From Chitinivibrionales bacterium (GTDB lineage: Bacteria; Fibrobacterota; Chitinivibrionia; Chitinivibrionales; WJKA01), in the NCBI GenBank assembly GCA_014728215.1, contig WJLZ01000092.1, positions 1-43,617 on the forward strand: a DNA stretch of 43,617 nt, in the 5' to 3' direction. Position 1 is the first letter of the stretch, and the number at the start of each line of letters is the position of its first letter. Below the pieces are notes generated by a model, which saw only the letters and a program-made list of their open reading frames with translations, searched no databases and was not told the DNA's origin. Shown in pieces: positions 27,549 to 40,360 of this stretch. The position numbers were made by a program, and so were the translations under genes.

Positions 27549-27626
27549 CGTTGTGGAGAACAAGACGACATTCATGTATTGGGAATTTTTGTCTGTACAA
27601 CCGAATGCAGGGAATATAACGGAATC

Positions 27627-30600
27627 GTGAAGCACCGTACTTTGGCATATCTGTTTCGCTCTATTGCATTCATTGCGATAGTAAGCATGCTATTGCCTGA
27701 TGTTGCAGCCGGGGAAGCTCAGACCGACGAATGGCGTGTACGACAAAACCTCGCATCCCGTCTTGAAGCCGAATGGTATAAAATCGGTATTCTTAACAGA
27801 GAATTGTCGAATGTAAGGGATGTGCTCGGTGATATTCGCAGTTTGCAATTATTCCCTTTACAGGTGACAGGATTAAATGAGGAAACGTTGATCGTATTTG
27901 ACGAGAAAATAGAGCAAGTCGAAGAGGAATATGAAAGTATCCACAAAGAGGTTGAGGCACTACGGGCGCCACTTGCCGATGCTATTGCGATACTGCGTGA
28001 GATGGTTGTTGGACAACCTGTGCCGGAAATGTTTGAGGCTCTCAAGGAGGGGGATTTTGAACGAATAAATAAAATGCTGGAAATAAAGCATCGTATCGAT
28101 GGAATCTGGTTCAAAACCGGGGAGCTTTTAGATTATGCCATGGAGCAAATGGATATCCCGGTTGTAAAAATGCACAAGTCCCGGGGTATCAAAGGTGAAT
28201 TCATGGAGATAATAAGAGCAAATCTCGGATTGCAGTCACAGGAATACTATTCGGAGCTGAATATAATTAAAGACACATTGTTTAACCGCGGCACAAAGCA
28301 GCAGGTTGATGAAATGTTCCTTATAGAGATCCATCAAATAAAGAGATACCTCGAAAATAATAAGGCATATATTGCGGTAAACAAATTGCCGGTTTTATTG
28401 AACCGATATAAAAGTAAAGAAGCTGTCGATGAACTGACACTTCTCCTTTCCCGTTCCTATTTTGCAACTGGTCAGTATATTAAAGCGATCAGTACGACCC
28501 AAACGCTCCCGTCAAATACCATGTACAAGGCCGCTCGGGTTCTGTATACAGTACAGAGCAAGTATGCATTACAGCGATATAATGAAATAATGGAATGGGC
28601 ATCCTCATTCGATTTTTTGACCTTAACGGGAAGGAACAGGAATACTGTTCTCTGGCTAACAATGGAAAGCGGATTGAAATCCGACGGCCCTTTCGATGCT
28701 GCCCGGCTTGCTGCACTGGCGGCTCAGGATGCTCCTGGAATGTTTCATGTTATGCATACCCTGGCACGTTCATTTATTAAAGCCGGCGACTACAAGACGG
28801 CCTTATCGGTACTTGAACGAGGTATACGATTCAAACCCCTCAATGAATCGGATGAAAAGGCTTATGACCGGATGCTTATTTCTATTGCTCAGGTCAATTA
28901 TGAAACAGGTAACTATGACAAGGCGTTGTCATTGTATTTCGATCTTCTTGAAAAGGAAGAAAATTATGAAAAATGTCTTTTCGGTATGACCTGGTGCTAC
29001 ATAGAACTCGAAAAATATGGCAAAGCGGAAACAAGCTTACGAAAATTGATAAACCAGAGCCCTGATAATCCCAATGCTGTGGAGGCGATCCTTATTCTTG
29101 CCGAACGTTATGTCAATAAGGCAGAGTATGAGTGGAAAAAATTGCAGTACCTTGATAAGCAGGAGAGAAATCTGGGCCGGCTGCATGAAGATCTGCAAAG
29201 AAAAATGGTTAGAGCAAATGGCGGTGGGGCAAAGAAAGAGCGGTTAGCCGATGCTGTAAAAGAAACTCGACATATGCTCAACGAGATACGAAGTGCGCCA
29301 AAAGAAAGTATTGAAGAGATAGCGTCACACTATAAAAATGCCCTGGCAATATGTTCAATGGTAGAGCATTACTATACAACCGGAACTTTCCAGGAGGCTA
29401 CTTTTTCGGTTCGTCGTGAAAAATTACTTCACCAGCTCGTTTCTCTGATGCTGGCGGTAAAAGAAAAAAGCACCAATGCAATCGAAAAAAAGAAAGCATA
29501 TATGTATGCAAAGCGGGATGTGGAAAAAATAAAATCGCTGGTTACAGAGAGTTCCTATTTATCTGCGGAAACGCAAATCGACCGCTATCGATGGGAATTA
29601 GAAAGTCTCGAGTGGAAAAAGGAAAAGGTAAAATATGCAGAAAAGCAGTTGGAAAAACGGCCCGATAAAAAAGACCGTATCGCAGTAGCGGAATATAAGC
29701 GGAAAAAGATTCGTTACGGCACAATGATGGATTCCCTGGTGAGTCATGAAGAATATCTGAATGAAAAACGGTATAAAGAAATAAGAGATATCTGTTTATC
29801 GGTGCTGACTCTTCCGCTCAACAGCAGCGATGAAGCCTATATCAGATATCATCTGGGTGAGCAGTATTATAGTTATGAAAATCGTCAATTTTCAGAATTA
29901 TACCGGGAATATGAAAGGCAGGCACTTGCCTATGACAGCCTTCTTGCTTTGTTCCGCAAGGGAGAGATTCTGGAAAAGCCGGTAGAACCCTTACCGCCCG
30001 ATGCCCATTATCATAGCGCAAGTATAGAGCAATTTAAAATGGTAATTGATAATTATCCTGATGACCCGTTAATTCCCGCCGTAAAATACAGTCTTGCCTG
30101 GTGCTATAACGATATGGGCATCTATGATAAAGCTCTTGACCAGATGGAGTCTGTTGCCATGGAATATGCCCAAAGCAGGTATGCTCCTCAGGCATGGATG
30201 TATATCGGTGAGCATGCGTTTGATAACGCCCAATTGAAAAAGGCTACTGAAGCATACAAGCAGGTTATGAATTATCCTGAGAGTAGATGGTTTGATGAGG
30301 CGTTGTATAAATATGCTTGGTCGCAATATCGCCAATCAAATCCCGAAAAGGCGATTAGTTCCTTTCTGGCCCTGGTTGATCTGGGAAAGAGAACCGAAAG
30401 CGGAAAATCGATTCTTGAGAAAGAATCCATGGATTACATCGCCATCAGTTTCAGTGAAGCGGATATTACCGGAGAAAAAGGACTCGAGCGCGCCGCAAAA
30501 TTTATTGAACGGTTCGGCAACAATGCCCAAGGCAGAGATATTCTTCATCGATTGGCAAGTGTCTATAAAGACCAGGGCCGCCATGACATGGCTGAGAAGG

Positions 30601-31121
30601 CATACCGGACAGTAATGACCATGTTTCCGAACCATCCTTCCAGTCCGGTCGTCGAAAAGGAACTTCTTGCGGTGCTTGAAAATAAAAAGAGCACATCGCA
30701 AATCAACCGGATGAAAGTGGATTATTTCAAGCAATACAATAGGAATGGAACCTGGGCGGCAATACAGAACGATCAGGAAGCAATTGCCAGAGGGGATAGT
30801 CTTGCCCGTGAAGTTCTCTATGATGCTGCCATAAGCCGGCATCAGATGGCGTTGCAAAACAATGATGCGGCAACCTACCATGATGCTATGGAATCCTATG
30901 ATGCCTTTATCCGGAATTATCCCCAGTCTCCTCGAGCCAATGAATGCCATTACAATTATGCTGAGATCATGTTTTCCCTGGGTGATTATCTGAACGCGGC
31001 GGAAGAATATATGGCCGTATCACGGAGATATCCGAACAGTAAATATAAAGAAACTGCGGCATGGAATGCGATTGTTGCATCACAAAATCTGTTGCGGTTA
31101 GAGCAGGAGCGGTTGAAGTGA
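27627..31121 (+). CDS. Giant exported TPR-repeat protein
   Basis: 1164 residues from a GTG at 27627; the frame opens at a TTG at 27579, but the GTG starts directly at a signal peptide (KHRTLAYLFRSIAFIAIVSM, LLPDVAAG). Only a weak RBS precedes it. The N-terminal third contains long helices (LIVFDEKIEQVEEEYESIHK). Many tetratricopeptide-like helix pairs follow, for example SIAQVNYETGNYDKALSLYF, AVKYSLAWCYNDMGIYDKAL, APQAWMYIGEHAFDNAQLKK, ALYKYAWSQYRQSNPEKAI and ECHYNYAEIMFSLGDYLNAA. Long charged helices lie between the TPR blocks (about 515-760). No catalytic motif is seen. A periplasmic scaffold linking inner and outer membrane parts is likely. GltD/GltE of Myxococcus and YbgF/CpoB of Tol-Pal are functional analogies. 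Confidence 0.8.
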   Translation: MKHRTLAYLFRSIAFIAIVSMLLPDVAAGEAQTDEWRVRQNLASRLEAEWYKIGILNRELSNVRDVLGDIRSLQLFPLQVTGLNEETLIVFDEKIEQVEEEYESIHKEVEALRAPLADAIAILREMVVGQPVPEMFEALKEGDFERINKMLEIKHRIDGIWFKTGELLDYAMEQMDIPVVKMHKSRGIKGEFMEIIRANLGLQSQEYYSELNIIKDTLFNRGTKQQVDEMFLIEIHQIKRYLENNKAYIAVNKLPVLLNRYKSKEAVDELTLLLSRSYFATGQYIKAISTTQTLPSNTMYKAARVLYTVQSKYALQRYNEIMEWASSFDFLTLTGRNRNTVLWLTMESGLKSDGPFDAARLAALAAQDAPGMFHVMHTLARSFIKAGDYKTALSVLERGIRFKPLNESDEKAYDRMLISIAQVNYETGNYDKALSLYFDLLEKEENYEKCLFGMTWCYIELEKYGKAETSLRKLINQSPDNPNAVEAILILAERYVNKAEYEWKKLQYLDKQERNLGRLHEDLQRKMVRANGGGAKKERLADAVKETRHMLNEIRSAPKESIEEIASHYKNALAICSMVEHYYTTGTFQEATFSVRREKLLHQLVSLMLAVKEKSTNAIEKKKAYMYAKRDVEKIKSLVTESSYLSAETQIDRYRWELESLEWKKEKVKYAEKQLEKRPDKKDRIAVAEYKRKKIRYGTMMDSLVSHEEYLNEKRYKEIRDICLSVLTLPLNSSDEAYIRYHLGEQYYSYENRQFSELYREYERQALAYDSLLALFRKGEILEKPVEPLPPDAHYHSASIEQFKMVIDNYPDDPLIPAVKYSLAWCYNDMGIYDKALDQMESVAMEYAQSRYAPQAWMYIGEHAFDNAQLKKATEAYKQVMNYPESRWFDEALYKYAWSQYRQSNPEKAISSFLALVDLGKRTESGKSILEKESMDYIAISFSEADITGEKGLERAAKFIERFGNNAQGRDILHRLASVYKDQGRHDMAEKAYRTVMTMFPNHPSSPVVEKELLAVLENKKSTSQINRMKVDYFKQYNRNGTWAAIQNDQEAIARGDSLAREVLYDAAISRHQMALQNNDAATYHDAMESYDAFIRNYPQSPRANECHYNYAEIMFSLGDYLNAAEEYMAVSRRYPNSKYKETAAWNAIVASQNLLRLEQERLK

Positions 31122-34114
31122 TCCGGTGTGTCGGTATAATCCTTTGTTTGTACACTTTCAGTATGATAGGGGGGTGTGCTTCGTCGATGAAGGGAAAAGA
31201 TTCCGGCCAGGAAGTTGACAGGAGGATGGCTGCACATACAGACAGCGTTGCTCAAGACATTTCGGACAGCTCAAAACAGAGCGGATACAAAGCCGGTGAT
31301 GAGAAGGATTCTCTGGGACAACCGGGACTTACGAACGCATCACAGTTGATGATCAAGGCCTGTGATAATTACCTTGCTGTTAATCACGATAATCAGAAAA
31401 TTCCGGAGGTGCTCGGTCTAAAAGCCTCGGTTCTCTACAACAATAAATTGTTTTCGGAAAGCAGAAAATATTACAAAGAACTGCTTGATAAATATCCCGA
31501 GAGTCATGAAGTGGTTAATGCGGTGAGAATGATTGCCCAGGCCTATTATGAAGAGAAGCAATTTGATAAAGCACAGGTATGGTATCGCAAGTTGAAGGAC
31601 ATTGCCGGTGAAGGAGGCGACAAGGAGGAGGCGGTTGCCAGAATAGCAGAATCGATTTTCCGCATGGCCGAGTCCTACGAAAAGCAACAGAATTACAAGA
31701 AAGCTGCAGAACAGTACGAACGTGTGGCAATGGAATATCCGGATTCAAAAATTGCGGATATAGCACTTTTCAATGCAGGGCTATCATACGAGAAAGAGAC
31801 AGAATGGTCGCACGCCGCATTGATGTACCAGCGTCTTTCACAAAAATATGGATCGTCACGACTATTACCAAAGGCCAAGTTTAGGTCTGCAAAGTGTTAT
31901 GAAAAACTTATGCAGTGGGAAAACGCCGGGGAGATGTACCTTCGGGTAGTGGCGGGCCATCCGACATCGGAAATGGCGCCGGCTGCGTTGTATAATGCCG
32001 GATTCAGCTTTGAAAATGCAAACAAGCTTCCGGAAGCTGCCGCTACATTCGAAAAAATGGCCCAATTGTTCCCGAAGTCCGAAGATGCTGCCGATGTTCT
32101 CTTTCGTGCGGGTGAAATTTACGGCAAACTGAAGGACTGGGAAAGTGTCACTCGTGTCAACCAGGAATTTTCGAAGCGATTCGGTAATGATGTCGATCGG
32201 ATTGTACAGGCCCAATGTATGGTGGGTGTCGCTCTCTATATGCAGGAAAAAGAAAGGGAAGCGGTGGAGCAGCTCAAAAAGGCGGTAACCACATTTGACC
32301 GTTTGAGGAATCCAAGCACGGTTAATAAATACTATGCCGCTAAAGCCCAGTTCACTCTGGCGGAAATATATCACGAGAATATGAAAAAGGTCGCCCTTTC
32401 CTTTCCTGAAAGTCTGTACCGCAAACAGATAAGATCGAAATCCCGTTTTCTCGATGAAGCTATTACCGGATATTCAAAAACAATTCAGTATAAAATATTT
32501 GAATGGACAACACGCTCAATTTTTCAGATAGGGCAGGTATACGAAGATTTTGCCATAGGAGTGATGAAACAAAAACGGCCGGAGAATATGTCGATGGATG
32601 AGCGGTTTGCCCTTGAACTGGGAATTGCCAGAGCAATCGATGAAAATTTTGTGGAGAATGCCCTTCACTATCACGAGGAAAATGTAAAGCTGGGAGTAAA
32701 AGAAAAAAATGAAGATAAATACATACTTGCTTCACGAAAAAAGTTGACTTTCCTTCCCCTATCTGCAGGAAAAAATTATCTCCACCTTACCGAGATACTC
32801 GGTAAAATAGAAAAATCACAGAATCTTACCGGTTTCGCACTTATTGCCCGGAAACTCGAAACCCTCCAGAAAATTGCTCCTTTCCAGGAACGGGCAATCG
32901 ATCTTTTTCTGAAAAGTCTTGAAATGGGAAGCAAGTATCATGAAGCCGATAAATTTTATCATGAAGCCGCCACCCTGATAACAAAGGTAGCTTATACCGT
33001 TGGCGAAACCTATGCTGAAGTAACAAAAATTGCCCGCGAAGCTCCCGTCCCACAATCCTTTGATGCCTATGAAAAGTTTGTTTACAAGACAAAGCTACTC
33101 AAGCAGATCGAATCCTACGAAGATCAGGCATTGAACAATTTTCTCAAAGTTCTTAAAATCGCCGATGCTTATGAACTTGAAGATAACTACATTAAAAAAA
33201 GCAGGGAGGACATTGCCAGAGTCATTTTTACCCGGGGGCGATGTTATGATCTGCTTTTTCTGCAATCCTTTAATAATCCTCCCTATCCTGCTGATGCCGA
33301 TGAGGTTGAAAAGGAAGAATACAAGGTTCAATTTGAAGAAGTGGGCCTTCGATTTCAGGAACAGGCCCTGGAAATATACAAAACTGTACTTGATTATGCC
33401 GAAAAGAATTTTGCATCGGGAAAGTATGTTGTCGATGCCTATGTCAGATTATACCAGAATTATCCTGAGGATTATGGGGTGAAAAGAGAGAAAGTCGCGA
33501 CAAAACATATTACCTCCGGGCCTCAGTGGAAGTGTTTAGTCGATTCAATCGAGGGATGGCGGCTCCTGGATACAAAAGACAACGACTGGTTGAAAGTCCA
33601 GAAAACATCACTACCTGATTCGATCGTTGTGTCCGGCTTCCCTGCAGATGTGCCTCCTCCAATGTGGATCGGAAAGGGAGACCCTGATGAAAGGGGTACC
33701 TATAAGCCGGCATCCCAGCTTTATTTGCGCAGGAAATTTTATGTCAGGGAGCCTGTTCATGAGGCTACTTTGTATGCGGCGGGGATCGGCCCTTTTGACA
33801 TCTATTTTAATGAAAATAAACTGCCGGTCGATTCTTCACAGACTGTTTCATTTGAAAAGGCACGGAAGTATACGGTTACGGGGATGGTCAGGGAGGGAAA
33901 AAATGTTTTTGCCGTTCATGCCGAAAAGCAGTCGAATACAATGTATGGGTTCATACCCTATCTTGAAGTAAATGTAACCGATCATGAATATATTCCTCTT
34001 CCACCTGGAACCAATGAACCATTGGATCCGGAGAAAATTAAAGAAAGTGTGTATATATTCGATTTTATTGAAAATTTTTCACCCGAAAAAGAAAAGGATT
34101 CCACGGATCAGTAA
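31118..34114 (+). CDS. Giant TPR lipoprotein with C-terminal jelly-roll-like domain
   Basis: 998 residues from a GTG at 31118 that overlaps the preceding stop by 4 bp (GTGA) and has AGGAG 8 bp upstream. A short lipoprotein signal ends at the lipobox MIGGC (Cys20), so the protein should be lipid-anchored. TPR repeats fill about residues 75-380 (VLYNNKLFSESRKYYKELL; MAESYEKQQNYKKAAEQYER; ALFNAGLSYEKETEWSHAAL; ALYNAGFSFENANKLPEAAA). Long helical repeats run to about 790. At about 800-960 the character changes to a beta-sandwich pattern, with GWRLLDTKDNDWLKV, PPPMWIGKGD, QLYLRRKFYV, ATLYAAGIGPFDIYFNENKL and VTGMVREGKNVFAVHAE. This resembles galactose-binding/rhamnosidase N-terminal domains. It could bind a glycan or partner protein. 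Confidence 0.8.
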   Translation: MIRCVGIILCLYTFSMIGGCASSMKGKDSGQEVDRRMAAHTDSVAQDISDSSKQSGYKAGDEKDSLGQPGLTNASQLMIKACDNYLAVNHDNQKIPEVLGLKASVLYNNKLFSESRKYYKELLDKYPESHEVVNAVRMIAQAYYEEKQFDKAQVWYRKLKDIAGEGGDKEEAVARIAESIFRMAESYEKQQNYKKAAEQYERVAMEYPDSKIADIALFNAGLSYEKETEWSHAALMYQRLSQKYGSSRLLPKAKFRSAKCYEKLMQWENAGEMYLRVVAGHPTSEMAPAALYNAGFSFENANKLPEAAATFEKMAQLFPKSEDAADVLFRAGEIYGKLKDWESVTRVNQEFSKRFGNDVDRIVQAQCMVGVALYMQEKEREAVEQLKKAVTTFDRLRNPSTVNKYYAAKAQFTLAEIYHENMKKVALSFPESLYRKQIRSKSRFLDEAITGYSKTIQYKIFEWTTRSIFQIGQVYEDFAIGVMKQKRPENMSMDERFALELGIARAIDENFVENALHYHEENVKLGVKEKNEDKYILASRKKLTFLPLSAGKNYLHLTEILGKIEKSQNLTGFALIARKLETLQKIAPFQERAIDLFLKSLEMGSKYHEADKFYHEAATLITKVAYTVGETYAEVTKIAREAPVPQSFDAYEKFVYKTKLLKQIESYEDQALNNFLKVLKIADAYELEDNYIKKSREDIARVIFTRGRCYDLLFLQSFNNPPYPADADEVEKEEYKVQFEEVGLRFQEQALEIYKTVLDYAEKNFASGKYVVDAYVRLYQNYPEDYGVKREKVATKHITSGPQWKCLVDSIEGWRLLDTKDNDWLKVQKTSLPDSIVVSGFPADVPPPMWIGKGDPDERGTYKPASQLYLRRKFYVREPVHEATLYAAGIGPFDIYFNENKLPVDSSQTVSFEKARKYTVTGMVREGKNVFAVHAEKQSNTMYGFIPYLEVNVTDHEYIPLPPGTNEPLDPEKIKESVYIFDFIENFSPEKEKDSTDQ

Positions 34115-34401
34115 TGAGACCAATTTATTTATTTGCACTGGCATTTTTGCTGTTTGGGATCTTTAATCCGGGATCTGCTCAGGAAGAAGAGCGTTCCCGC
34201 TCGGAAACAGGTTACCGGATTGATGCTCCCGGGACGATTACTTTTACTGTTGGGGTAAAAATCAAAGGAAAAGTGGAAAAACCTCAAGTGGTCATATTTT
34301 TACCGAAAGAAAAACCTCACTATCGTGAGGTTGATTTTGAGCGGTCCTTTAAGAAAGAACTCATGGAATCACTTCCCTTTGAACCGGTGGAAGTACCCTG
34401 A
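34114..34401 (+). CDS. Small secreted protein, unknown
   Basis: 95 residues; the ATG shares one base with the preceding stop (TAATG), so it is coupled to the TPR lipoprotein. A clear signal peptide (RPIYLFALAFLLFGIFNPGSA) with cleavage after GSAQ leaves about 72 residues. These contain the beta-rich piece TITFTVGVKIKGKVEKPQVV followed by IFLPKEKPHYREVDFERSF and a Pro-rich end. No family was recognised. Its place between the TPR lipoprotein and the ExbB/ExbD genes argues for a periplasmic part of the same machine. Confidence 0.75.
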   Translation: MRPIYLFALAFLLFGIFNPGSAQEEERSRSETGYRIDAPGTITFTVGVKIKGKVEKPQVVIFLPKEKPHYREVDFERSFKKELMESLPFEPVEVP

Positions 34402-34543: not shown

Positions 34544-35176
34544 ATGGAAGTCATTGCCAGATTTTTTCAAGAAGGCGGGATGTGGATGTACTTGCTGGCA
34601 GGGGTATCTGCATTTGCACTGGCAATTATATTCGAACGGCTTTACTACTATTATATCCATTGCCGGGTAAATGCAAAGATGCTTTTGACCCAGGTTACGA
34701 GAATGGTCCGTAACGGCGAGCTCGAAAAAGCCCGTCAACTTTGCGCAAAGATGAAAAATCCATTGGCAGTTATACTGGAAAGCGCATTGTGGCATTTTCA
34801 GCAGCAGGAGCCGGATCAGGAGATACAGAACGCCGTTGATGAAATCGCTCTCCGGGAACTCCCCCGAATCAACCGGCGGACCCATTATCTCTCCCTTTTT
34901 GCAAACATTTCGACACTCATGGGGTTACTGGGAACAATCTTTGGTTTGCAGCAGGCATTCGGTGCCCTGGCAACAGCGGATCCCTCACAAAAGGCTACTG
35001 TTCTGGCACAGGGTATTGCAATGGCGATGAATACTACGGCGATGGGACTTATGGTTGCCATTCCCTGTATGATTATGTTCTCGATTTTAGGCTCAAAGTC
35101 AAACGGGATTATTGAAGAAATAGACGAGAGTTCAGTCCGGATTCTGAACTTTCTCTTTGCTCAACGCCGTCATTAA
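34544..35176 (+). CDS. MotA/TolQ/ExbB proton channel family protein
   Basis: 210 residues with AAGGAGG before the ATG. Three membrane segments are seen: about 13-35 (MYLLAGVSAFALAIIFERL), about 115-140 (LFANISTLMGLLGTIFGLQQ) and about 158-185 (MNTTAMGLMVAIPCMIMFSI). A cytoplasmic loop between the first two carries RNGELEKARQLCAKMKNPLA. The Thr/Gly motifs in the last two helices are the conserved channel signatures of TolQ, ExbB and AglR. It forms the stator pore that uses the proton gradient across the inner membrane. It is followed by two ExbD-type partners and an AgmX/TonB-like protein with 18 bp or less between genes. Confidence 0.93.
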   Translation: MEVIARFFQEGGMWMYLLAGVSAFALAIIFERLYYYYIHCRVNAKMLLTQVTRMVRNGELEKARQLCAKMKNPLAVILESALWHFQQQEPDQEIQNAVDEIALRELPRINRRTHYLSLFANISTLMGLLGTIFGLQQAFGALATADPSQKATVLAQGIAMAMNTTAMGLMVAIPCMIMFSILGSKSNGIIEEIDESSVRILNFLFAQRRH

Positions 35177-35194
35177 TATAATGGGAATATATCG

Positions 35195-35701
35195 ATGGAT
35201 AACGATATGCAGCAGAAAAAAGCATTCCCTGCCACGCGGCGGGTAGAGAAAGCGGTCGGAAACGATACCGAAATGATCGAACTGGATGTTACGCCGGTCA
35301 TGAATCTCTTCATGGTTCTGATTCCCTTTCTCGTTTCCATGGCGGTATTTACCCAGATAGCAATTATTGATTTTTCTCTCCCTCCCTCTACATCGGAAGA
35401 AAGCGACCAACAGAGTAATCAGGAAATTAAAGAGCTGGATATATCGATTGTGGTTACGGAAAAAGGGTTCAGGATTGTAGGCACCGGTAAGAAACTCGAC
35501 CTGGTGCCCCGCGTCAGGGGGCAGTATCAGTTTCAGCAGCTGAGGGTAATGTTGAAGGCGATTAAATTTGAATACCCCTCACAGAAAAGCGTGGTTTTGG
35601 TATTGGATTCGGACATTCTTTATGATGACATTATAAAATTCATGGATGTATGCCGGGAATCGCAATTTCCCGACATCGGCCTGTCTGGAGAGATCGGATG
35701 A
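35195..35701 (+). CDS. ExbD/TolR family protein 1 (Asn in place of the conserved Asp)
   Basis: 168 residues with one N-terminal membrane helix (about 33-56: TPVMNLFMVLIPFLVSMAVF) and a periplasmic domain ending in a TolR-like fold (KSVVLVLDSDILYDDIIKFM). In ExbD, TolR and AglQ the helix begins with a conserved Pro-x-x-Asp whose Asp carries the proton. Here the same position reads Asn37 (codon AAT at 35303-35305). This protein therefore may not conduct protons itself. The following gene encodes a second family member that keeps the Asp, and the two genes overlap by 4 bp. A mixed ExbD dimer in one stator is likely. Confidence 0.9.
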   Translation: MDNDMQQKKAFPATRRVEKAVGNDTEMIELDVTPVMNLFMVLIPFLVSMAVFTQIAIIDFSLPPSTSEESDQQSNQEIKELDISIVVTEKGFRIVGTGKKLDLVPRVRGQYQFQQLRVMLKAIKFEYPSQKSVVLVLDSDILYDDIIKFMDVCRESQFPDIGLSGEIG

Positions 35702-36216
35702 GTTTTCCTGTATCCAAATCGGGCCAGAAACATCCGGGGCTGGCCAGAACAAAAAAGAAGATGAAAGGGATCAAGCCCCAGTTGACATCACTTATCGATG
35801 TCATGACCATTCTTCTGGTATATCTTTTGAAAAGTTTTTCGGCTGAAGGAGAGATTATTACTCTATCGAAAAATCTCGAACTGCCGGAATCATCCGCCCA
35901 TAAACGTCCTGAGCTGAATGTCGTAATTATGGTAAACAATAAGTACATTCTTGCCGAAGATGCTCAGCTTGCCGACGTGGACCAGGTGCTCAGTACAAAC
36001 GATCTTATTATACCCCAGCTCGAGGAATGGCTGCGTCGGCGAAGGCAGACAACTGAAAAGATCGAGCAGTATTCGACAAAAACGAAGTTTACCGGTGACG
36101 TAACCATTCAGGGAGATAAGCGAATTCGTTTCAGGCTGTTAAAAAAGATAATGTACACCTGCGGACAGCAGGGATATACCAATTTCTCGTTGGCTGTCAG
36201 AAGGAAAGAGGAGTAA
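35698..36216 (+). CDS. ExbD/TolR family protein 2 (conserved Asp present)
   Basis: 172 residues from the ATG at 35698, which overlaps the stop of the first exbD gene (ATGA); the longer open frame from 35650 lies within that gene. A basic head (RTKKKMKGIKPQ) is followed by the membrane helix LTSLIDVMTILLVYLLKSF with the proton-carrying Asp34. The periplasmic domain (about 55-172) is longer than usual because of a charged helix around EEWLRRRRQTTEKIEQY. It ends MYTCGQQGYTNFSLAVRRKEE, matching the TolR fold. Together with the ExbB-like protein it should form the stator. Confidence 0.93.
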   Translation: MSFPVSKSGQKHPGLARTKKKMKGIKPQLTSLIDVMTILLVYLLKSFSAEGEIITLSKNLELPESSAHKRPELNVVIMVNNKYILAEDAQLADVDQVLSTNDLIIPQLEEWLRRRRQTTEKIEQYSTKTKFTGDVTIQGDKRIRFRLLKKIMYTCGQQGYTNFSLAVRRKEE

Positions 36217-36219
36217 GTC

Positions 36220-37257
36220 GTGGACCGTCAGCCCAATGTTGTCGTCATGAGTGCAGGCTCGATGGCGATAGATCAATCGTTGGTAAAGCAGGTTCGCGGA
36301 ACGCTGTGGAGTAAGATTGATTTCCGCTTTTTTATAGTTGCGATTATATCACTTCTTATTCACGGTATTCTGGTGTATGTTCTTGACCAGAAGGAAATTC
36401 AGGCTGAAGCCCGGGTAGAAATCGAAAAGATACCCGATCGTTTTGTGAAATTGATTATAGAGAAGCCGTTACCCAAGGAGGCGACGACGGCGAAGCCGGC
36501 TATTCAGGAAACGAAAGCTGCCGAGGAGGCACAACCCGATGAGAATATTCCGGAAAAGAGCACAACACCGGCAGAAAAAAAAGCAGCCCGGGTTGCCGCA
36601 AAAAAACAGGTCGCTCGCCGTGCTGCGCAGGTGGAGAAAAAGATTCGAACAGTGGGTGTACTGGGTATGCTCACCGGCGTTGGTGGAAAAGGACCGGCCG
36701 TAGTCGATGCCTTACAGGGAACAAGGAAAGAAAGAAATCAGGATCTGGATAAAGCGCTCGAAAGCATGACCGGCCTCAAACGGGCTTCAAATGTGGATGT
36801 GCTCGATAAGAAACTGGTTAAAAGTAAGGATGTCGCCATTGCTCATAAGGAAGATATCGGAGATCTGGTGGCAAGCATTGGAATGGCAAAAACCACAGAA
36901 TTGACAAAGAAAGGTAATTTCATAATTCAGCGTCCGGAAAGTATTGAAGGTGCGGCATCATCAAATGCCAAGCGTGACAACGGTGCGATAAACAGAGTCG
37001 TGGGGTCACATAAGACCAGTATCCGCATGAGTTATGAAAAGTACTTGAAGAGGAATCCGGGACTCGCCGGAAAAATAACTGTCCGGTTCACTATTGCTGC
37101 TGCTGGAAGAATTATCGAAGTACAAATTCTCGAAAATACGACCGGCAGCAAGGATCTGGCGCGGGATATTTCAAGAAAAATGAAAATGTGGAGATTCGAT
37201 CCTATTTCCGATGGGGATGTCACGGTGACCTATCCCTTTGTTTTCAGTCCCGCATAA
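36220..37257 (+). CDS. TonB-like protein with AgmX/PglI-type C-terminal domain
   Basis: 345 residues, starting at GTG (36220) with GAGGAG upstream and only 3 bp after the exbD gene. The N-terminus is cytoplasmic, one membrane helix spans about 37-55 (FFIVAIISLLIHGILVYVL), and a Lys/Ala/Glu-rich periplasmic stretch follows. The C-terminal domain (about 255-345) reads INRVVGSHKTSIRMSYEKYL, RNPGLAGKITVRFTIAAAG, RIIEVQILENTTGS and MWRFDPISDGDVTVTYPFVF. This is the pattern of the AgmX/PglI C-terminal (TonB family) domain known from Myxococcus gliding proteins. It would carry force or conformational change from the ExbB/ExbD stator to outer-membrane parts. Confidence 0.9.
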   Translation: MDRQPNVVVMSAGSMAIDQSLVKQVRGTLWSKIDFRFFIVAIISLLIHGILVYVLDQKEIQAEARVEIEKIPDRFVKLIIEKPLPKEATTAKPAIQETKAAEEAQPDENIPEKSTTPAEKKAARVAAKKQVARRAAQVEKKIRTVGVLGMLTGVGGKGPAVVDALQGTRKERNQDLDKALESMTGLKRASNVDVLDKKLVKSKDVAIAHKEDIGDLVASIGMAKTTELTKKGNFIIQRPESIEGAASSNAKRDNGAINRVVGSHKTSIRMSYEKYLKRNPGLAGKITVRFTIAAAGRIIEVQILENTTGSKDLARDISRKMKMWRFDPISDGDVTVTYPFVFSPA

Positions 37258-37292: not shown

Positions 37293-38186
37293 ATGAAAAT
37301 AAAAACGTTTCCTCTTATTCTACTGATTGCGACCAGTTTTTTGTACGGCTCGATTATTAAAGTCGGTGATGTTTTAGAAATATCAGTTCCTGGCAGTGAA
37401 GAGTTTTCCGGTCAATATGTCGTTATGGATGACGGGACTATCGATTACCCCCTTTTAGTCGATCAGCCGATAATAAATATCAGTACACTCGAATTGATGA
37501 ATGAATTAACTATTCGTCTGGCAAAATATGTTGACAATCCGCTTGTTTCAATACAGATAGTCGAAAATCCCGATATTAGGGTAACTGTCCTTGGCCAGAT
37601 CGGATCGCCGGGGCCGCTTGCTACCTATCAAGGGGTATCGCTTCAGGAAGTTATTGTCCAGGCAGGGGGACCGACCAAATATGCAGATCTTAAAAAGATC
37701 AAGATTGTCAGAAAAGACGGTTCCGATAACGAAGCAATATTCTTCAATCTGGAAGAATTCCTCGATAAGGGTAATGTATCCGAATTACCACGGATTCTCA
37801 ATGAGGATAGGATTTTACTTCTTACAAAGGAGCGCTCGACAAAAGTAAAGGTGATCGGCGCAGTCAGAAAGCCGGGGTTTTTTGAACTGCAGGAAGATGT
37901 CAATCTATTTGAAATCGTCTACCTTGCAGGCGGTCCTTCGGAAAAAGCCGACCTCTCACGGGTACGGAGGCTGTTCAAGCATGATGGAAAAACCATGGAG
38001 GAAGTGGTCGATCTCAAGGGGTATATAGATAAAGGAGCCATGGATGATATCCCGATGGTTGCCGAGAGCGATGTTATTATCGTTTATGCAAAATGGTTTG
38101 ACTGGCGCACCCTATTGACAATTCTCAATAATACACTTTTGTTTATTGTAACGGTTCAGACATTCAGTGGAGTTTTCAATAAGTGA
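37293..38186 (+). CDS. Polysaccharide export protein, Wza-like (SLBB domains)
   Basis: 297 residues. A signal peptide (KIKTFPLILLIATSFLYGS) leads straight into the poly-export domain: IIKVGDVLEISVPGSEEFSG, VMDDGTIDYPLL. Two SLBB domains follow: RVTVLGQIGSPGPLATYQGV with LQEVIVQAGGPT, and KVKVIGAVRKPGFFELQEDV with YLAGGPSEKADLSRV. The C-terminal helix (about 273-293: LLTILNNTLLFIVTVQTF) matches the part of Wza that forms the outer-membrane helical barrel. It lacks the lipid-anchor Cys of E. coli Wza and is shorter (297 against about 379). It exports a capsule or exopolysaccharide. It overlaps the tyrosine kinase gene by 4 bp. Confidence 0.9.
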   Translation: MKIKTFPLILLIATSFLYGSIIKVGDVLEISVPGSEEFSGQYVVMDDGTIDYPLLVDQPIINISTLELMNELTIRLAKYVDNPLVSIQIVENPDIRVTVLGQIGSPGPLATYQGVSLQEVIVQAGGPTKYADLKKIKIVRKDGSDNEAIFFNLEEFLDKGNVSELPRILNEDRILLLTKERSTKVKVIGAVRKPGFFELQEDVNLFEIVYLAGGPSEKADLSRVRRLFKHDGKTMEEVVDLKGYIDKGAMDDIPMVAESDVIIVYAKWFDWRTLLTILNNTLLFIVTVQTFSGVFNK

Positions 38187-40360
38187 AAAATCCCGTTTCT
38201 ACAAATATAGCCAGCTTCAAATCAGGGGCCCATCTAAAGGATTATCTGGCACTTCTGGTCCGAAGAAAATGGATAATACTTGTGGCTTTTTTTTCTGTCG
38301 CCCTTTCTGCTGCCTGGTACGTTTCTAGAATTGAAGATATTTTTCAGTCAAATTCGACGCTGGTTATTGAAGAAAATAATACATTGATAAGCCAGGCAAT
38401 GAATTTCGGGAGCGGACGGTCCTTGAGTTTCTATCAGGGGATTCTCAACAGTCGTACATATCTTGAAATGGTACTCGACAGCATAGGATTTGATGTCTTT
38501 AATTCGGTATTCAATCAAATATCCAAAGATCGGGCACTCGAATATATTCAGAACAATATTACTTTGCGTAAAACATCCTATACTTCCTTTTACTCATTCA
38601 CGGCACGGGCAAAAACAAAGGAACTGGCGTATTTTATCGCCGGTATCGGCACAGACATTTTCAGGCAGCAGTGTCTGGAGGTTGCTACCGAAGAAGCCCG
38701 GCGCACAGTGGTGGAGATCGATAAACAGCTTGACATTGTCAAAAAGAATCTTGAAAAGTCCGAGCATGAATACCGGGCATTTAAAGAAAAAACCGGAGAG
38801 ATTCTTGAAGGTGCCACACCGGAACTCCGGACCTTGCAAAATGCCTATGCCGATAAACTTGCCCAGCTGGGGCTGAAAGAAGCCGATTTGGATGCGGAGA
38901 AAAAGCAATTGAGACGCCTGGAGGCAAAAATCGCTCCTAAGGAGTCCAAGCGCTCGCCGGAATATCTGAAGCTACGCTCGAAACTGAGTGAACTTGAAAA
39001 AGAAAAAATGAGGCTGGAAAATCTTGGTATTCGGCTCTCGGGGATCTCAACTATCGACCGGGAGATTAACGAAGTGGTAAAGCAGCTTCTGCAATATAAA
39101 AAACCTGAAGGTGCACCAAGGGTCAATGCCCGAATGATCCGTTCGTGGCAAGAATTGCGGAAATCGGTTCTGAATAAAGAAGCGGATCTCGATCTATTCA
39201 AGCGTAAACTGGAATCGTATAAGAATGCTATCGATAATTACAAAAAAGGAAACCCGAATATTTTAAACAAATCGCTGGAGCTTCAAAGGCTCAGGCTGAC
39301 AAAACAAAACTACGGACGTATTTACGATTTCCTTATAAAAAAAGCGGAAGAAGAACGGCTTAAAAGCGCATCGGGAACCGCAGGGATAAAAATTGTCGAT
39401 GCTCCCCGGATGCCCGAACGTCCCATACCCAAAAATGAAAAGCGGTATTATATCCTGGGGGTTATCCTGGGGCTTTCACTCGGTTTGGGATTGGCATTTT
39501 TTGTCGAATATAACGATACAACTATCAAATCCAATGACGATGTCGAGCGGTATCTGGGAATTTCGGTATTAGGCACGATCCCTCATATCACCTATTCAAA
39601 AAGAAATGAGAAGGAAATCAAACGCCGGTCATCAAAAAAGCAAACAAAGGTGTCGGTTACCCAGTATCCCAAACAGCTTCTCAATTTTTCCGGTGATGAA
39701 TCGATTATTACCGAGGCATATCGCTCTCTCAGAACAAATTTGTCTTTTGTAAGTCCCGATAAGCCCCTTCAAACCGTTCTGCTCACTTCAGCCGGTCCTT
39801 CAGAAGGGAAATCATTGACTATTACAAATCTGGCCATGGCAAATGCACAGCTTGGAAGAAAAACACTTCTTATCGATACCGATCTGCGCCGCCCAATACT
39901 GCACCATCTTTTCAACATGAGACGTGAACCCGGATTTACCGAACTTTTCGCAGAGCATTTTGACTATGATGCTGTTGTACGCACCACCGATAAAGAAAAT
40001 CTCTTTGTATGTACCGCCGGGCTTTTTTCACCGAATCCGGCGGAATTGATCGGCTCCCAGCGGATGATTCAGCATATCGAATATTTCAAGAAGCATTTCG
40101 ACATCATATTTTTCGATACGCCGCCTGTGGTCGCCGTCACCGACGCATCCTTACTGAGTACCAAAGTAGATGCTTCACTACTCGTGGTAAAATCACATCA
40201 TACCGATAGAGAAATCGCCTCCAGAGCAGTACAGAATCTGAGAAACGTAGGCGCAAAAATTGTTGGTGCGGTACTCAACGATATCGACCTCGCTCATCGG
40301 TATTCTTCATACGGCTATTATAAATATTATTATCATTACTACAAATCCAAAACCGATTGA
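38183..40360 (+). CDS. Polysaccharide co-polymerase/tyrosine autokinase, Wzc-like
   Basis: 725 residues, starting at GTG (38183) overlapping the wza-like stop. The N-terminal Wzz domain has one membrane helix (about 30-50: KWIILVAFFSVALSAAWYV), a long periplasmic coiled coil (about 165-360) and a second helix near 425-445 (YILGVILGLSLGLGLAFFV). The cytoplasmic kinase domain has Walker A in SAGPSEGKSLTITNLA, Walker A' in LLIDTDLRRP and Walker B in IIFFDTPPVVAV. The C-terminus is a tyrosine cluster (YSSYGYYKYYYHYY, nine Tyr), the autophosphorylation tail. Such proteins control chain length and, through cycles of phosphorylation, polymer export with Wza. Confidence 0.94.
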   Translation: MKNPVSTNIASFKSGAHLKDYLALLVRRKWIILVAFFSVALSAAWYVSRIEDIFQSNSTLVIEENNTLISQAMNFGSGRSLSFYQGILNSRTYLEMVLDSIGFDVFNSVFNQISKDRALEYIQNNITLRKTSYTSFYSFTARAKTKELAYFIAGIGTDIFRQQCLEVATEEARRTVVEIDKQLDIVKKNLEKSEHEYRAFKEKTGEILEGATPELRTLQNAYADKLAQLGLKEADLDAEKKQLRRLEAKIAPKESKRSPEYLKLRSKLSELEKEKMRLENLGIRLSGISTIDREINEVVKQLLQYKKPEGAPRVNARMIRSWQELRKSVLNKEADLDLFKRKLESYKNAIDNYKKGNPNILNKSLELQRLRLTKQNYGRIYDFLIKKAEEERLKSASGTAGIKIVDAPRMPERPIPKNEKRYYILGVILGLSLGLGLAFFVEYNDTTIKSNDDVERYLGISVLGTIPHITYSKRNEKEIKRRSSKKQTKVSVTQYPKQLLNFSGDESIITEAYRSLRTNLSFVSPDKPLQTVLLTSAGPSEGKSLTITNLAMANAQLGRKTLLIDTDLRRPILHHLFNMRREPGFTELFAEHFDYDAVVRTTDKENLFVCTAGLFSPNPAELIGSQRMIQHIEYFKKHFDIIFFDTPPVVAVTDASLLSTKVDASLLVVKSHHTDREIASRAVQNLRNVGAKIVGAVLNDIDLAHRYSSYGYYKYYYHYYKSKTD

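Follow-up and report, generated by a model that had tools for sequence, protein, structure and literature searches.

An Agl/Glt-type envelope motor locus in which an ExbD lacking the proton-carrying Asp adjoins an ExbD that retains it

Models of the 5:2 motors MotAB, ExbBD and TolQR assume that two equivalent Asp residues in the axle take turns. A locus in the window, the whole stretch of 43,617 nucleotides analysed here, encodes an ExbB-like protein followed by two ExbD-like proteins (D1 and D2), of which only D2 keeps the proton-carrying Asp, and this raises the question of how such a pair may drive a motor. The original prediction, made from the DNA letters, was that Asn37 of D1 and Asp34 of D2 form an asymmetric stator with one proton path per dimer, or that D1 is a structural subunit.

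The locus and its Agl/Glt ancestry

The genes lie on the + strand in the following order:

27579..31121, + strand: TPR protein 1, 1180 aa, matched to TPR families
31061..34114, + strand: TPR protein 2, 1017 aa, matched to TPR families; an upstream partner conserved in relatives
34114..34401, + strand: 95-aa open reading frame with a signal-peptide-like start, between TPR protein 2 and ExbB
34544..35176, + strand: ExbB/AglR-like ring subunit, 210 aa (PF01618, 2.9e-27; alignment to E. coli ExbB and TolQ)
35195..35701, + strand: ExbD1 of the AglQ lineage, 168 aa, without the proton-carrying Asp (PF02472, E = 1.6e-14)
35698..36216, + strand: ExbD2 of the AglS lineage, 172 aa, with the proton-carrying Asp34 (PF02472, E = 1.8e-14)
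36220..37257, + strand: GltG/TonB-like transducer with one N-terminal transmembrane (TM) helix and a TonB-type C-terminal domain (TonB_C, 1.4e-5)
37293..38186, + strand: Wza-like polysaccharide export protein with SLBB (PF10531 and PF02563; synteny)
38183..40360, + strand: Wzc-like polysaccharide co-polymerase/tyrosine kinase (TIGR01007, 1.5e-56; synteny)

The D2 frame opens with the ATG at 35698, so that its first 4 bases are shared with the 3' end of D1. The 95-aa open reading frame matched no family in a Pfam scan, and synteny shows it in the majority of Fibrobacterota loci, where it likewise separates the TPR protein from ExbB. The wza-like and wzc-like genes directly 3' of the motor operon are conserved in Fibrobacterota by synteny, and none was seen downstream of the motor in the KSB1 and Calditrichota loci. 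A gene for a STAS-domain protein of about 105 aa lies between D1 and D2 in most orthologues (ten loci; PF01740, 9.7e-13 in the one that was scanned) and is absent from the window and two other loci; its product is possibly a regulator of the motor.

A phylogenetic tree, in which the Myxococcus AglQ and AglS sequences were assigned by homology and not by name, divides the paired ExbDs into two separate old clades, and the Myxococcota pair contributes one subunit to each. The D1 proteins, including those with Asp, cluster together (SH-aLRT 83), as do the D2 proteins (98), and the non-acidic D1 proteins form a single group within the D1 clade (SH-aLRT 83-98). Since D1 groups with the AglQ type and D2 with the AglS type, D1 is of AglQ descent and D2 of AglS descent, and the gene order of ExbB followed by these two ExbDs is that of aglRQS. 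The transducer matches the AgmX/PglI C-terminal domain model above its cut-off (NF033768, 7.6e-26) and the GltG model over its C-terminal half only and below the curated cut-off (NF033760, 1.7e-28). The two large TPR proteins, which matched TPR families, are candidates for the place of GltD, GltE and GltC. A core complex of GltD/E/G/C and AglR/Q/S has been reported in proteobacteria and Fibrobacter, and the GltG match together with the operon of the window fits that description (PMC3169522). Homology and gene order assign the locus to this Agl/Glt core complex, from which it departs in having Asn37 and Met160 where AglQ has Asp and AglR has Glu. The operon FSU_2400-2403 of F. succinogenes, with the order ExbB–ExbD–ExbD–TonB, is found at higher abundance on cellulose (PMC6851124), and by gene order it is likely to be a triad of the Gly type described below.

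The closest known system is AglR–AglQ–AglS of M. xanthus, which has an ExbB gene and a pair of ExbD genes arranged as in the window, and likewise TPR partners and a transducer of the GltG type. Asp has been described in AglQ as well as in AglS, and whether they form homodimers or heterodimers was a stated unknown in a 2022 review (PMC9389320). The M. xanthus motor also moves spore-coat polysaccharide, and this AglRQS–Nfs machine, with the Wza homologue ExoA, resembles the window in that a motor of this type acts on exported surface polysaccharide (PMC3858216). In the window, however, the motor genes and the putative polysaccharide export genes form one neighbourhood. The search of solved structures returned none of an AglRQS-type motor. 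To our knowledge, the lineage of the window does not sporulate.

Loss of the acid in D1

Asn37 of D1 is encoded by AAT at 35303-35305, within TPVMNLFMVLIPFL, and Asp34 of D2 by GAT at 35797-35799, within LTSLIDVMTILL. In a phmmer comparison with solved ExbD structures, ELDVTPVMN of D1 and DINVTPFID of E. coli ExbD align without a gap, Asn37 falling opposite Asp25, in agreement with the original reading of the two sites. Both D1 and D2 score above the PF02472 cut-off, and D1 has the single N-terminal TM helix and the periplasmic fold of the family; what it lacks is the proton-carrying Asp. In the AF2 model of D1, the helix spans residues 33-57 (mean pLDDT 80), and the predicted periplasmic part matches TolR 5by4 and ExbD 8pek/8vgc.

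The Asn is conserved in relatives, as the original prediction had proposed to check. Across 61 genomes of the Fibrobacterota, the phylum of the window, every orthologous D1 (48-81% identical) carries Asn and every accompanying D2 carries Asp, so that relatives with Asp in D1, which might have refuted the prediction, are not found among the orthologues. A paralogous ExbB–D1–D2 system elsewhere in the same genome has the identical Asn/Asp split. A DNA pattern that permits either Asn or Asp at the D1 site gave 41 matches in 27 genomes when 168 genomes of the phylum were searched, all of them with Asn codons. The codon itself is AAT in 10 and AAC in 10 of 20 orthologues of the window system, and the fixed residue with a drifting codon suggests purifying selection on Asn. 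Another acid at or near the site, the second possible refutation, is likewise absent: none of the 130 non-acidic D1 proteins of the survey described next has Asp or Glu at positions 32-50, and a misalignment masking another acid is thus ruled out by the alignments and this helix scan.

For the wider survey, a D2 alignment was searched against 84,980 genomes, the adjoining D1 being read afterwards, and further loci were read that had been fetched from 97 Myxococcota genomes, 79 genomes of the KSB1/Calditrichota group and Fibrobacter genomes. It comprises 163 distinct ExbB–D1–D2 triads, some of them reached through the D2 search, which takes no account of the D1 sequence. No match to gammaproteobacterial or Geobacter members of the core complex was found among plasmids. 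Residue states were counted with trimmed models, and Pro44, considered below, from alignment columns. A survey bias towards Asn is countered by the D2-first search and by the Asn-or-Asp pattern.

The D2 site is Asp in all 163 triads. D1 is non-acidic in 130 of them (Asn 111, Gly 14, Cys 2, Ser 2 and Ala 1), which belong to Fibrobacterota, Calditrichota and KSB1, and has Asp in the remaining 33, all of the Myxococcota AglQ type. The best 80 loci of the D2 search come from Fibrobacterota, Calditrichota, KSB1, Myxococcota and other bacteria, and among these 80 a D1 Asp is confined to Myxococcota/deltaproteobacterial loci, barring one extra ExbD downstream. At the level of sequence, therefore, loss of the D1 acid with retention of the D2 Asp spans at least three phylum-level groups, and the asymmetry is established and holds across phyla. 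The deepest conserved feature is the loss of the acid and not Asn as such, since Gly, Ser, Ala or Cys occupies the site in Fibrobacter and other lineages; a requirement for Asn itself everywhere is thereby ruled out. All 14 Gly-bearing D1 proteins are from Fibrobacter, where the D1 homologues are about 300 aa long and Gly takes the place of the Asp within LLPAMGLFTILIPMLL.

A non-acidic ExbD always adjoins an Asp-bearing ExbD wherever the contig is long enough, and every stand-alone ExbD that was examined has Asp. Together with the spread over several phyla, these observations strongly support the functional asymmetry that the original prediction had claimed for the pair, of which only one subunit could carry a proton; the arrangement of the two subunits is a separate matter, considered below.

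Changes in the ring subunit and in the D1 helix

In the structure of ExbB–ExbD, two ExbB threonines flank the ExbD Asp (PMC6778125). Alignment places Thr131 and Thr165 of the window ExbB on Thr148 and Thr181 of E. coli ExbB, and equivalents of these two residues are kept in 158 of 159 ExbB proteins. Alignment to E. coli ExbB and TolQ places Met160 (35021-35023) at the position of Glu176, which varies with the D1 state: the equivalent is Glu in 33 of 33 Asp-type triads and in 4 of 126 non-acid triads, having been lost in the other 122. D1 itself has Pro44 (35324-35326), seven residues past Asn37, and Pro occupies this position in 120 of the 130 non-acidic D1 proteins and in 0 of the 33 with Asp. 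Thus, the Myxococcota-type triads differ from the window in all three respects, with Asp in D1, Glu in ExbB and no Pro44. E. coli ExbB–ExbD and TolQ–TolR share with the window their folds, the ring of Thr148 and Thr181 and the Asp of D2, but have a single ExbD type, a homodimer with two identical Asp residues, and Glu176 in ExbB.

The Glu is also missing from about a quarter of the single-ExbD systems seen, which retain the Asp, and so its loss is not specific to loss of the D1 acid and is weakened as a strict marker of it. Moreover, the acid loss goes back in effect to a single origin on the tree, and hence the changes in ExbB and at Pro44 may partly reflect shared descent.

Tandem ExbB–ExbB–ExbD systems were also observed at six loci, where the residue corresponding to Glu176 is kept in one ExbB and replaced by Ile, Val or Leu in its partner; judging from these residues, the two may form a mixed ring and so another type of asymmetric stator.

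One proton carrier or two

The reading best supported by these data, and one that we consider rather more probable than its competitors taken together, is a heterodimeric stator ExbB5–D1–D2 with one proton carrier. The locus would encode a proton-driven envelope motor of the 5:2 type in the Agl/Glt lineage, with ExbB as the equivalent of AglR and the TonB-like protein as that of GltG. Five ExbB subunits, a number taken from the ExbBD and TolQR structures, would encircle one D1 and one D2 helix. Asp34 of D2 would be the only proton carrier, binding and releasing its proton against the retained threonine ring of ExbB, and Asn37 of D1 would be a permanent mimic of a protonated Asp that keeps the packing of the axle and exchanges no proton. 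If the ring rotates past this axle, each turn would consume about half the protons of a two-Asp motor. The motor would most likely pull or move envelope or polysaccharide components through the GltG-like transducer and the TPR partners, beside the Wza/Wzc pathway.

The D28N substitution in aglQ abolishes proton conductance, motility and sporulation in M. xanthus (PMC3858216), bearing out for AglQ the claim that Asp to Asn inactivates the subunit. This is also a counterpoint to the single-carrier reading, because Asp28 of AglQ is essential despite the Asp of AglS, and one Asp is insufficient in the ancestral type. The single-carrier form must therefore have adapted, and two candidates for co-adaptations to a single-carrier cycle are the disappearance of the Glu from ExbB and the appearance of Pro44 in D1.

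The main alternative, to which we give a clearly smaller but appreciable chance, is that a D2 homodimer forms a classical two-Asp axle and that D1 is an accessory outside the pore, acting in assembly, regulation or peptidoglycan contact. D2 alone has everything that a classical ExbD needs, and the drift of site 37 to Gly, Ser, Ala or Cys in some lineages is as expected of a residue freed from proton duty. However, conservation in D1 is higher in the TM helix than in the periplasmic domain (major-residue frequency 0.74 versus 0.47 in the Asn-type set), a pattern that fits packing of D1 within the ring, and Asn37, Phe45, Leu46 and Phe52 are invariant in 40 Asn-type D1 sequences. It would also be odd for the pore residue of ExbB at position 176 to change with the state of a D1 lying outside the pore, and AglQ, the D1 orthologue in M. 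xanthus, has an essential channel Asp. In addition, ExbB and D1 are fused in one open reading frame of 432-450 aa, followed by D2, at ten loci, one of them in the genome of the window, suggesting that D1 is tied to the ring. A separate ExbB gene lies just upstream of most of these fusions, and the ring there may consist of four free ExbB subunits and one ExbB–D1 together with one D2.

An arrangement with two kinds of ring, in which ExbB5:D2(2) motors coexist with passive ExbB5:D1(2) rings that give the GltG/TPR complex a bearing or an anchor, is improbable. D1 is predicted to retain the complete ExbD architecture and could homodimerise, and the question of homodimers or heterodimers left open for AglQ and AglS (PMC9389320) would accommodate it. 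The window system has, however, a single ExbB gene per triad, D1 was never found without D2 at the loci examined, and the coordinated change in ExbB, being of one type, fits a uniform population of rings.

It is more improbable still that D1 carries ions by other means, through a shifted carboxylate, a GldL-like carboxylate in ExbB or Asn-based handling of Na+. In the 5:2 motor GldL–GldM the surroundings of the axle helices are not equivalent, and motors of this type place the key carboxylate, a Glu of GldL, in the ring subunit; GldM is a homodimer, however, and the proteins are not homologous to those of the window at the sequence level. The D1 helix has no acid, and no replacement carboxylate was found in TM2 or TM3 of ExbB, where the acid is lost and not gained. 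Finally, a lone or neutral loss, a decaying gene or a sequencing error in the window genome can be dismissed, given the Asn in all orthologues and in the paralogous system, the non-acidic D1 proteins in several phyla and the drift between synonymous codons where the residue itself stays fixed.

The putative motor would thus be of a known kind, the Agl-type 5:2 motor, and its variant with an Asp-less D1 and an Asp-bearing D2 appears to be new, as no earlier report of such a pair was found in the open-access literature. Whether the loci together represent a widespread Agl-type subfamily is an evenly poised question: its members would have an obligate ExbB5–D1–D2 axle with a single carrier and half the usual protons per turn, and its signature would be a D1 that has lost its Asp and acquired a helix-kinking Pro, together with an ExbB that has lost its Glu. 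A natural axle helix without Asp makes it directly testable whether the axle is a heterodimer and whether one carrier is enough. The changes at ExbB Glu176 and D1 Pro44 are candidate second-site changes that may permit a motor to run on one Asp, whereas D28N alone in AglQ is lethal to the M. xanthus motor.
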